Below are positions 21,707 through 25,026 of a stretch of 64,000 bases of DNA, piece by piece. The position numbers and the translations under genes were made by a program. Under the pieces are notes generated by a model, which was given only the letters and a program-made list of their open reading frames with translations, was not told the origin of the DNA and did no database searches. Source of the DNA: Bacteroidetes bacterium OLB12 (GTDB lineage Bacteria > Bacteroidota > Bacteroidia > Cytophagales > Cyclobacteriaceae); assembly GCA_001567185.1 (NCBI GenBank), contig LNFR01000052.1, forward strand, positions 36,227 through 100,226, given 5' to 3'. How positions within the stretch are numbered: position 1 is the stretch's first letter; each line of letters opens with the position of its first letter.

Positions 21707-23201
21707 TTATTTTTTGCGGCCAATCCCAAAGCGATTGAGTTGTTTTAACAGAAACTCGTTCCCGTCTGGTGTAGCTTTCGAATAAAAAATCAGTAGAGAG
21801 AATAGTATGGTGATGGTTGCGGAGCGAAGGACAATGTCAACAATTGTATTTTCAAATGTTGGAATGAATAGGTTTAATCCAATCATGATCGCAGCAATAA
21901 TCAGCACTTTCAGGGAGTTCCAGTCAAAGGGCTGTATCTTTAGTTTATACCAGATGAAGAAGTATTTCAGAACATTGAATGAAATCAGCGCCAGTGCAGA
22001 ACCCATTGCAGCACCGTTGATTCCGTAAACCGGAATCAGGATGTTGTTACTCACAATCACGATAACGGCCAGCAAGGTGAGTAACAAGATATTGAATGCA
22101 TAGTATTTTGAGAGCACAATAATCTCACTGCTGGGACCAAACAACATATCCACCAACTTGCCAAACCCAATTATAATCACGACCCACTTTCCGGCCTCGT
22201 AAATTTCCTGTTTCGGTATAAGCGAAAAGATATTATCGAGATTAATGTACACACCAATCAGCAACAAAGCCCCAATAATAAACTGGTTGATAGCAGTTTT
22301 TTGGTAAATCGTTTTTATATCAGCCAGATCATTTTTCTCGAAGGCCCGGGCAATCAAGGGCATGGCTACCTGGCTTAAAGCTCTTTTTGGAATTTCAATA
22401 ATGGTTGCCATATAAAATGCCGTGGTATAAACCGCATTGGCGGCCAGGCCCAACATGCCCGATACCATCATACTATCCACTTTGCCAATCAGGATCATAC
22501 CTGCCGTGCCCGCAAAACTCAATGAACTGAAAATTACCAGCGATTTTATCTTATCTCCTGGTATGGCCTCAGGTTAAAAGTGAATGAAAACTTTTGAAGG
22601 AAAATGAGATAACCCACCAGCAGCAACAAACAAAACAGATAGCCCAGTACCGTGCCAACAATAAATTGATTGTAGGTATATAACCTTGAAAATAGGCAAG
22701 CACCAATAGCGCCAGCATGAGTCTTACCACAATTTCGCGCAGCAGGCTGGGAAAGATCATTTTTAATAATGAACGCGAATATGCTTCCAGCAATGAAGTG
22801 ATTAATAAAATCAAAGTAAGCCATAGAACTATAGACGCATACTGAATGATTTCACTAGCATTGGCTTGAAAGTAAGAAAGAATGTTTCCTTCAAATAATT
22901 TGAAGGTGATAAAGAAAATAGCGAATCCACTTAAGGCAAGTAGCGTAATCAGGCTGATAAAACCGGCCTCGGTAGTTTTGTCTTTTACCAGTTGCGGATA
23001 AAACCTGAAAATGCTTTGGGCTAATCCAAATGTAGCAAATGGTGCCAGCAGAATGGCAGCATCCTGAATGGTGCGAAGCAAACCCACTTGCTCCGGTTCC
23101 AGAAATTTTGGGAACAGGTACAATAAATTGATATAACCAATTACCGCCCCGGCATAGGAAATAATAGTGGTGTAAATGCTTTGGCGGATGACGAGGCCCA
23201 T
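21707..23201 (-). CDS. Polysaccharide flippase, Wzx/MATE-like (two frameshifts)
   Basis: Three frames join into a protein of about 498 residues with 12-14 predicted membrane segments. One missing base near 22660-22668 links YFQGYIPTIN to FIVGTVLGYLFCLLLLVGY, and one missing base near 22556-22562 links FNLRPYQ to GDKIKSLVIFSSLSFAG. The N-terminus MGLVIRQSIYTTIISYAG and the barrel of hydrophobic helices fit the oligosaccharide flippase family that moves lipid-linked sugars across the inner membrane. The start ATG overlaps the stop of the DUF4143 gene (TAATG). Its first 12 codons occur a second time at 24437-24471, upstream of that gene. Confidence 0.75.
23166..23195. repeat. Direct repeat copy A (start of the flippase gene)
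   Basis: 30 bases identical except one to 24437-24466. It covers codons 3-12 of the intact flippase. Together the two copies bracket the DUF4143 gene and about 1.27 kb of sequence. Confidence 0.85.
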
Positions 23202-24325
23202 TATGAAATAAACGGTTGGTAGTTGTGAGGAGTGATTACGCGATGTTCGCTTTCAGGATAGGCATTTGTAAATGTTGTCGGGGCTTTCTCTTTTTTTACG
23301 GTTCCCCATTTAAATTCGAAAGTATAAAGTTTGCCATCCCGTTCTTCGATGTAATCAATTTCTTGTTGTTGCTTGGTTCTCCAAAAAAACTTATTCGACC
23401 AAAGATTTGTGTAACTCGTAAATTTCAGACGCTCGGTTAGAATAAAATTCTCCCAAAGAGAACCAATATCCTTCCTGAGTTCTGCTGGTTGAAAGTTGGC
23501 GATAATAGCATTACGCACCCCGTTGTCATAAAAATAAATCTTACGGCTTTTCTTCAGTTCATTTCTAAGGTTTCGGCTAAAAGAAGGCAACCTGTAAACC
23601 ACCATTGTTTTTTCCAGTAAATCGATGTACCGGCTTACGGTTTGCGGATCGGATTTAACCAGATCAGCTATCTCGTTGTAGCTTACTTCAGAACCAATTT
23701 GAAGGCTTAATGCCTGAAGTATTTTTTCAATAACCTCCGGTTTTCTAACATCTTTAAACGAGAAAAGATCTTTATATAGATAGCTGTCAGTAAGATTTTT
23801 CAGGATGCTTTTTTCTGAGCCGGGATTATTGACAACATCCGGATACATTCCATAAATCAAACGTGTGGTTAATAACCTGTTCTCTTCCAGAAAAGAGTTG
23901 TGTTCAATTAATTCGGCCATCGACAACGGGTACATAATGAACTCCCATTTTCTACCTGTCAATGGCTCGTTGATTTCATTGGCTAGCTCAAGCGCGGATG
24001 AGCCTGAAACAATTAACTGCACAGATGTAAGCTGATCGAGAATGAGCTTGAGGCTCAGGCCAATGTTTTTTACCCGTTGTGCTTCATCTATAATCACTAA
24101 TGTATGGTTGCCTATTAGTGCTTTAAGCTCGGTAGAAGTCTTGTTAAAAAGTAAGGTCCGCATATCGGGTTCATCGCAGTTGATAAATAATACCTTGTTG
24201 CGCCATTTCTCCGAAATGCTCTTCAACAGGGTAGTTTTACCCACCTGGCGCGCCCCAATTACAATTACGGCTTTTCCTGCGCTTAAGTGCGATTTTACCA
24301 ATATTTCCAGCTTTCTTGCGATCAT
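23201..24325 (-). CDS. AAA ATPase with DUF4143 nuclease-like C-terminus
   Basis: 374 residues. Walker A GARQVGKTTLL (about 24-34), Walker B TLVIIDEAQ (about 77-85), a sensor-like SGSSALELAN, a winged-helix-like middle section (YNEIADLVKSDPQTVSRYIDLLEK) and a C-terminal DUF4143 domain whose QEIDYIEERD ... FEFKWG resembles the PD-(D/E)xK core. Members of this family are common, patchily distributed, often horizontally moved, and of unknown role. It overlaps the flippase start by one base. A 42-bp palindrome overlaps its own start codon, and a direct repeat brackets it. Neighbours are polysaccharide genes with which it has no obvious functional link, so it looks inserted. Confidence 0.85.
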   Translation of the reverse strand: MIARKLEILVKSHLSAGKAVIVIGARQVGKTTLLKSISEKWRNKVLFINCDEPDMRTLLFNKTSTELKALIGNHTLVIIDEAQRVKNIGLSLKLILDQLTSVQLIVSGSSALELANEINEPLTGRKWEFIMYPLSMAELIEHNSFLEENRLLTTRLIYGMYPDVVNNPGSEKSILKNLTDSYLYKDLFSFKDVRKPEVIEKILQALSLQIGSEVSYNEIADLVKSDPQTVSRYIDLLEKTMVVYRLPSFSRNLRNELKKSRKIYFYDNGVRNAIIANFQPAELRKDIGSLWENFILTERLKFTSYTNLWSNKFFWRTKQQQEIDYIEERDGKLYTFEFKWGTVKKEKAPTTFTNAYPESEHRVITPHNYQPFIS

Positions 24326-24361
24326 AATCCTATAAAGTTATAACTTTTTTGGATTATAATC
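24320..24361. promoter_or_regulatory. 42-bp near-perfect palindrome over the DUF4143 start codon
   Basis: Centre AAAGTTATAACTTT (24334-24347) is a perfect 14-bp palindrome. It is flanked symmetrically by ATAATCC (24324-24330) and GGATTAT (24351-24357), and the dyad extends to 24320 and 24361 with one more mismatch. It covers the ATG at 24323-24325. Position and symmetry suggest an autoregulatory operator, or alternatively an end or recognition site of a mobile cassette. Confidence 0.75.
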
Positions 24362-24436
24362 TTTAAAAAGTCATGAAGTGCGCTTATTAGAAATTCAAGG
24401 AAGCATGTGCAGCAAAATTGGAGAAACAAATTGCCG

Positions 24437-24466
24437 AGTAGTGTAAATGCTTTGGCGGATGACGAG
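24437..24466. repeat. Direct repeat copy B (orphan 5' fragment of the flippase gene)
   Basis: One mismatch over 30 bases against 23166-23195. On the minus strand it follows an ATG (24471) 21 bases after the methyltransferase gene, where the flippase would be expected to start if the DUF4143 gene were absent. The frame then reads LVIRQSIYTT and diverges. Confidence 0.85.
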
Positions 24467-24492
24467 CTCATGAGTCTTGCTTGTGTTATCTT

Positions 24493-25026
24493 TTAGCTTC
24501 TACAATATAATACCTGGGGGGTAATATATCGCAGCAACGGACGAACACCGAACACTCCGGTGGGTGAAGTCCATTTTTCTGAACGAACTATTTGCCAACC
24601 GCTTTTTTCCAATAACCAATCAAACTGCCAGTCTTCAAATTCATGAAAGTGTTGATCCCATCGATCATTTTTATTGCGATAGGCTCTGGCAAACCAGAGT
24701 GACAAGGGGATGCTTGCATATAATCGTTTTGCCTGCAGATTTTTTAAAACTCCCATTGGATTAATGAGATGCTCAAGAATTTCAAATGCAAAGGCAGTTT
24801 CCGTATTAAATTCACCAACAGATTCAGGATAGATATCCAGATCTTCCCCTTTTGTATTGACTATCGCGTATCCTGCTTGTTCGAATAGTTTTGAAAGCGG
24901 ATTGGTTATGCCAATGTCTAGCACCTTACTGCCAGTTGGCAAGGTTTGCTTTACAAAAGCAAGAGTTCTTGTATAACGCCTGCTTAATGTTTTATTGCTA
25001 AGACTATAGCTTTCAGTAGAATCCAT
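24493..25026 (-). CDS. SAM-dependent methyltransferase, class I-like
   Basis: 177 residues. Motif I region SKVLDIGITNPLSKLFEQAG (about 37-56), an acidic residue after strand 2 (NTKGEDLDIYP), and EILEHLINPMGVLKNL, the usual FDVIxxxEVLEH-like block. Substrate unknown; in this setting a sugar or lipid intermediate of the polysaccharide is plausible. It begins one base after the glycosyltransferase stop, so it is cotranscribed with it. Confidence 0.75.
   Translation of the reverse strand: MDSTESYSLSNKTLSRRYTRTLAFVKQTLPTGSKVLDIGITNPLSKLFEQAGYAIVNTKGEDLDIYPESVGEFNTETAFAFEILEHLINPMGVLKNLQAKRLYASIPLSLWFARAYRNKNDRWDQHFHEFEDWQFDWLLEKSGWQIVRSEKWTSPTGVFGVRPLLRYITPQVLYCRS

Follow-up and report, generated by a model that had tools for sequence, protein, structure and literature searches.

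The start of a flippase gene is duplicated on both sides of a DUF4143 gene in the window, by which we mean the whole stretch of DNA analysed here, 64,000 nucleotides of contig LNFR01000052.1 from Bacteroidetes bacterium OLB12. At this locus there are relatives with and without the inserted block, an outer copy of the flippase start that is dead, and an inner start that is whole. The scar left by the block, a copied end of a neighbouring gene, is not private to DUF4143, yet it is not found at every kind of gene. We give about an even chance to what we regard as the likeliest mechanism, namely that incoming DNA on which the gene was next to its target beforehand recombined by homology on one side only, with an illegitimate join at the opposite end.

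The repeat and the block at the flippase start

A direct repeat of 30 nt with one mismatch occupies positions 23166-23195 and 24437-24466, with a spacing of 1271 nt; this is as the sequence-only reading had described it, and a new comparison of the two copies bore it out. The inner copy (23166..23201, minus strand) is the complete start of the flippase gene (21707..23201, minus strand), with its ATG at 23201-23199, and the stop of the DUF4143 open reading frame (ORF) overlaps that ATG as TAATG, which also agrees with the earlier description. The outer copy had been said to follow an ATG at 24471. This ATG is indeed present, 21 nt past the methyltransferase-like ORF, but it belongs to the copy and does not precede it, so that the copy measures 35 nt in total (24437..24471, minus strand). 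We place its beginning at the ATG because in the sister genome G023 the outer start is undamaged and 10 nt long. One base is missing after the ATG of the outer copy in the window, which puts it out of the flippase frame, and it is dead. The view that the block lies just inside the start of the flippase, that this start has been duplicated and that the start of the target gene is whole again is therefore supported.

Between the two copies are a leader of 111 nt (24326..24436, minus strand) and the DUF4143 gene (23201..24325, minus strand), and an inverted repeat at 24311..24370 (minus strand) forms a palindrome over the start codon of the latter, where it is a probable promoter or operator. The gene upstream (24493..25026, minus strand) is only methyltransferase-like, since its match to Pfam Methyltransf_23 (20.1 bits) is under the cut-off of 27. 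The block contains one sizeable sense ORF, that of DUF4143, and an antisense ORF of 97 amino acids; it has no restriction-modification genes, and the earlier statement that it is free of transposase holds for its ORFs, none of which is transposase-like.

Repeats were scored at +1 per match and -2 per mismatch, with up to 900 nt compared on either side of a gene and a threshold of 20 that was fixed after the data had been seen. The window locus scores 27. The best score between different loci was 14 in 383 random pairs, except for one pair that shares a palindrome (43), and the best among 101 random ORFs was 15. An assembly artefact was considered as the source of the repeat and is ruled out by the presence of the block in G023 as well (CP058703.1, isolate SSA6).

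The flippase frame of the window shifts twice, at about 22,500-22,700, through small losses relative to G023 and others, and these breaks may be due to sequencing error or to decay. Another DUF4143 gene of the same genome (L004/L007) is likewise split across frames, again by sequencing error or decay.

The DUF4143 protein

The gene encodes 374 amino acids that match the PADLOC profile PDC-S01 over positions 1-373 of 375 (E 3.8e-163), and Pfam recognises both AAA_14 (105.9 bits, cut-off 27) and DUF4143 (137.9 bits, cut-off 28.1). PDC-S01 combines a STAND-like ATPase with a PD-(D/E)XK-like part. Residues 24-31 (24233..24256, minus strand), in which G24, R26, Q27, G29 and K30 are invariant, are what we take to be the Walker A motif. 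Further on, D324, E337 and K339 (D324 ... E337-x-K339; 23309..23356, minus strand) are invariant across 47 aligned sequences and presumably represent the nuclease motif, which is a probable one; the C-terminal part also gives fold matches. The protein is an ATPase fused to a probable nuclease. A search of solved structures by sequence returned a single match with an E value of 0.048, which is not credible.

The same locus in related genomes

Relatives of the flippase were present in 33 of 58 genomes, and 12 of these loci were examined. DUF4143 precedes the flippase in seven genomes (G000, G023, G009, G026, G067, G027 and G084), in the first five of which the order is methyltransferase, DUF4143, flippase. 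G023, whose flippase is 95% identical, has the block in common with the window. No outer copy was detectable at the flippase locus of G009, G026 or G067, and in G084 (L150) a different gene lies upstream. A second case was found in G027, where a glycosyltransferase-like gene is followed 5 nt on by an outer copy, then by DUF4143 and then by the complete flippase start. This outer copy is the start of G027's own flippase, exact over 31 nt, and past it and a nine-base gap five further bases match when read by eye.

Comparison with relatives lacking the block had been proposed as a check, and such empty sites exist. In G017 the methyltransferase gene is directly followed by the flippase, and in G021 and G033 the glycosyltransferase-like gene ends 7 nt before it (these spacings, like the 5 nt in G027, were read by eye).

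Identities to the window, given here for DUF4143, the first 180 flippase residues and miaA in that order, are 97/97/94 in G023, 86/86/83 in G009, 79/65/68 in G026, 77/69/62 in G027 and 84/58/61 in G084. The DUF4143 gene of G084 was probably acquired by transfer, because it is closer to that of the window than are the flippase start (58%) and miaA (61%) of the same genome.

Flanking repeats at other DUF4143 loci

The genus sample comprised 114 DUF4143 loci among the matches listed, 101 of them with the full 900 nt on both sides. Flanking repeats were found at 18 of the 114, compared with none of 101 ORFs drawn at random in 20 regions (p 6e-6, the p values here being rough because several loci are orthologous between species). 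Five of the 18 are palindromes at both ends (L049, L073, L075, L077 and L122); the other 13 are non-palindromic and 30 to 287 nt long. Three are non-coding or dispersed repeats (L041, L044 and L092), while 10 of the 13 copy the coding end of an intact neighbour, and as two of these are orthologous they represent nine cases. The copied ends are the start of the flippase (L002 and L048), of wecB (L086) and of cas1 (L115, after a stretch read as the end of cas9), and the 3' end of cinA (L025 and L027), an SDR gene (L104), thrC (L118) and a CPBP-like gene (L058 and L060, the orthologous pair); all these gene names were read from translations and are not database assignments. A search for other DUF4143 genes flanked by copies of 20-40 bp of the next gene's start had been suggested as a further check, and comparable duplications were found, with both starts and 3' ends copied over 30 to 287 nt. 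As for the flippase, relatives show the wecB, cinA and SDR targets without the gene, a reading based on the 100 to 200 nt closest to the target.

A wider collection of 80 relatives from public genomes of several phyla gave repeats at 21 of the 73 DUF4143 loci whose flanks each reach 400 nt or more, compared with 4 of 168 other ORFs of the same loci, and with fewer clear gene ends than in the genus. Among 22 repeats of this collection, four match an intact ORF at its start or end (L151, L174, L215 and L219), two lie inside an intact ORF (L158 and L228) and one is doubtful (L169); the others are non-coding, palindromic or within short ORFs. At 25 loci chosen by hand, the median distance from the DUF4143 stop to the downstream copy is 35 nt, and that from the end of the upstream copy to the DUF4143 ATG is 158 nt.

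Some subfamilies keep to one target. DUF4143 follows the SDR gene in six of the eight members of one subfamily, and cas1 and cinA are each the target in two. Of 216 pairs within subfamilies, 73 share both flanks, 43 only the upstream and 8 only the downstream flank, and 92 share neither, these being counts without a gene-order baseline; the subfamily of the DUF4143 inserted at wecB is among the pairs sharing neither flank. Related DUF4143 genes lie directly before cas1 in G077 (L115) and G080 (L122). In G077 an intact cas1 follows DUF4143 and a fragment of cas1 lies on the opposite side, and in G080 DUF4143 precedes what appears to be the remnant of a cas1-cas2 deletion.

Palindromes at DUF4143 starts

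The palindrome pattern of the window occurs in 9 of 60 genus genomes, and in all nine it is at the flippase locus, either with DUF4143 or as a relic. In G031 (L320), G008 (L323) and G072 (L325) a solo palindrome stands just before the flippase and DUF4143 is absent. We read the solo palindrome as the relic of a lost DUF4143 gene, the promoter of which may now drive the flippase. Another solo operator palindrome without DUF4143 is found just before the flippase start at L010.

A palindrome score of at least 12 within 90 nt of the start was reached by 43 of the 114 genus DUF4143 genes and 14 of the 80 in the wider collection, and by none of 121 control ORFs. To judge from sequence, this suggests autoregulation or a cis site of the DUF4143 protein. 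At L073, L075, L077, L049, L122 and L223, near-identical and mostly palindromic stretches of about 35 to 70 nt are found before the start and directly after the stop, and look like marks on both ends of a unit. Repeated palindromes are also found upstream of DUF4143 genes that follow the SDR gene (L300, L294, L298, L301 and L304), and after the SDR gene of G072 there is no such DUF4143 gene and a scrap of palindrome has been kept.

Control gene families

Genes with a Fic domain were taken as a control (70 of the matches listed, of which 65 have flanks of 300 nt or more), the ORF being the longest through the match. Repeats flank 6 of the 65 Fic loci in the genus, compared with 18 of the 109 DUF4143 loci that have flanks of this length (p=0.26). 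The Fic motif is present in 54 of the 65 control ORFs, and 6 of the 54 have repeats. On inspection four of the six Fic loci are credible, and setting 13 DUF4143 loci against these four gives p 0.29. L419 and L384 are flanked by copies of the 3' end of the neighbour, the same scar as at DUF4143 genes; the repeat at L409 and L359 is unclear or non-coding, that at L388 is hairpin-like, and L381 involves two paralogues. Acetyltransferases (PF13302) gave no repeats at 68 usable loci out of 70.

Since Fic genes carry the scar, DUF4143 is not required for it. Our own first reading, a mobility specific to DUF4143, was weakened by this control and is now treated as a rival explanation. The sequence-only reading had suggested a cassette that repairs its target frame as an unusual mobility strategy. 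As stated, this is not supported: the rate of the scar at Fic genes is not significantly different, and one-sided recombination with donor DNA explains lengths of 30 to 287 nt no less well than action by the element itself.

Divergence between the copies

In seven coding pairs (the orthologous L058 being left out) the differences between copies number 23/17/62 at codon positions 1/2/3. From this excess at third positions, it would seem that the copies diverged largely while both were still coding, and it supports, without proving, a donor origin of one copy. The bias is strongest for cas1 in G077 (2/1/18 in 130 nt), and the SDR pair differs at 6/4/20. Within the ungapped stretches compared, the fragments are free of internal stops; the cas1 fragment has a stop further on and the SDR fragment has a five-base gap.

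In none of the cases does a copy resemble a foreign gene more than its partner. The two cas1 copies of G077 (79.2% identical over 192 nt) are little more alike than are the intact cas1 and that of G014 (77.2%), yet they are each other's nearest among the 14 other sequences compared. A different ancestry of the two cas1 copies (72.1% between the copies, 76.4% to G014) had been considered as proof of a donor and was rejected, as it came from a poor alignment and the better one gives the values above. The fragments of wecB (5 differences) and SDR do not side clearly with relatives, the SDR tree having one starred fork of 14. The flippase showed no boundary of a donor tract, and the window copies are too short and too alike to reveal a donor.

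Two events are recorded at the 3' end of cinA, with fragments of 243 and 124 nt. The copies in G002 are identical at 222 of 234 positions, compared with 212 of 234 between the intact genes of two species, and those in G032 are 89.5% identical. Three pairs have the look of decay in place, with non-synonymous to synonymous codons at 6 : 4 in cinA of G002, 4 : 1 in thrC and 8 : 3 in the CPBP-like gene. In G009 the outer wecB fragment follows a promoter-like stretch that is also found before wecB in G072, G017, G031 and partly G068, and which the inner copy does not have. The fragment is therefore the old start, and the intact copy belongs to the newer arrangement.

Origin of the duplicated gene ends

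In one-sided recombination the PDC-S01 gene would have arrived on foreign DNA in which a flippase start followed it immediately. This DNA would have recombined by homology inside the flippase, and at its other end an illegitimate join would have linked it to the resident gene, about 35 nt past the ATG. The resident start would be left as the outer fragment and the incoming complete start would become the working one, so that the start of the target would be restored automatically. Our best explanation is thus that DUF4143 is mainly a frequent passenger, the probable nuclease of which may help by cutting the target, and that the scar is more likely a trace of the uptake of foreign DNA than of a special ability of this gene. 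Counting against it are the laboratory products of such recombination, which are usually deletions, the pairs that seem to have decayed in place, and the fact that none of the copies is demonstrably foreign. The strongest rival, which we hold to be a minor but real possibility, is a nuclease-driven homing in which the DUF4143 protein would cut the end of its target gene in cells free of the element, and repair from DNA that bears it would install the gene together with a replacement end, as happens with mobile ORFs in fungal mitochondria. The ATPase with its PD-(D/E)XK-like part and invariant D, E and K would suit such a role, as would the repeats at 21 of 73 loci in the wider collection, the similar lengths of the flippase fragments (35 and at least 31 nt) and the fidelity of subfamilies to one target (flippase in seven genomes, SDR in 6 of 8, cas1 and cinA in two each). 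Fidelity is, however, also expected from homologous recombination or inheritance, other subfamilies are unfaithful (92 of 216 pairs share neither flank), and the scar is found at Fic genes (6 of 65, four of them credible). Moreover, a site that is duplicated and restored intact would stay open to the predicted cleavage. It is unlikely, in our judgement, that PDC-S01 as a whole is a selfish homing family, each subfamily of which would recognise one host gene end and carry its replacement so that host function is kept, defence then being incidental or wrongly attributed.

Transposition with a long staggered cut is quite improbable. The gene and its leader would here have entered at a pair of cuts separated by some 31 to 36 nt, and the filling of gaps would have produced a duplication that then decayed. 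It would account for the duplication starting exactly at the ATG in G000/G023 and G027, with DUF4143 ending right before it, for the copy pairs that resemble decayed duplicates made in place, and for the cas1 copies being each other's nearest; but the lengths are not fixed (30 to 287 nt), the block has no transposase-like gene, and 18 of the 21 differences in cas1 are at third positions, which is unexpected if one copy was always dead. We think it highly improbable that DUF4143 is merely an old neighbour of the flippase, with the outer fragment derived from a later local duplication and deletion. Although the gene order shared by G000, G023, G009, G026 and G067 and the relic palindromes that precede the flippase of G031, G008 and G072 are in keeping with long residence, the outer copies occupy the position at which relatives free of the block have their flippase start, the G027 copy matches its own flippase exactly, and in G084 the similarities of DUF4143 and flippase disagree.

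As a considerable fraction of the loci studied carry the scar, events of gain become datable and donors traceable in a very common defence candidate. Should DUF4143 be the driver, a large family that is now listed under defence would have to be reinterpreted as mobile. The Fic control points the other way, and the scar would then document more generally how single foreign genes come into these bacteria with no harm to the neighbouring gene. In addition, the pairing of some subfamilies with particular neighbours makes recognition of those genes testable.

Comparison with known systems

PDC-S01 has been ranked fourth among prokaryotic defences and described as an ATPase fused to a PD-(D/E)XK member, with validation pending for most such candidates (PMC12988326). 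The protein of the window matches the full length of this phage-defence candidate in PADLOC, the defence role of which has not been validated, according to the same excerpt (PMC12988326). No tie between the family and target duplication appeared in the passages of that paper or in the literature listings consulted. A DNA transposon differs from the block in having a transposase and a short, fixed duplication, whereas the block has no transposase-like gene and the duplications vary in length.

Homology-facilitated illegitimate recombination, as excerpted, combines a homologous exchange at one end with an illegitimate join at the other, and its laboratory products are usually deletions and not duplications (PMC3240628). 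The cases described here would in contrast be a duplication subset, proposed from sequence only. The mobile ORFs of fungal mitochondria (Allomyces atp6; Glomus atp6, atp9, cox2 and nad3) carry duplicated gene ends, and in the excerpted account they share with the DUF4143 loci a nuclease ORF and a duplicated end that restores the target, the native end being left as a fragment (PMC3630166). A duplicated gene end beside an endonuclease-like ORF was found here at 10 genus loci, or nine cases with the orthologous pair counted once. The two differ in that the mitochondrial endonuclease is reported in that excerpt to be biochemically shown to be responsible for mobility (PMC3630166), whereas the DUF4143 nuclease is predicted, and in that DUF4143 loci duplicate the starts of genes as well as their ends.

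The block in the window has the form of an insertion with long target duplication. Some restriction-modification systems insert in this way with long and variable duplications, on the order of 100 bp in the portion of text available (PMC3874152). The available portions on these systems, including those of Helicobacter pylori, likewise describe a transposase-free unit between long and variable copies of the target, which was recognised through the comparison of related genomes (PMC3874152, PMC1643837, PMC3031569). The unit described here differs from them in consisting of an ATPase-nuclease gene with no methyltransferase, and in that some of its subfamilies are found beside the same target gene in several species.
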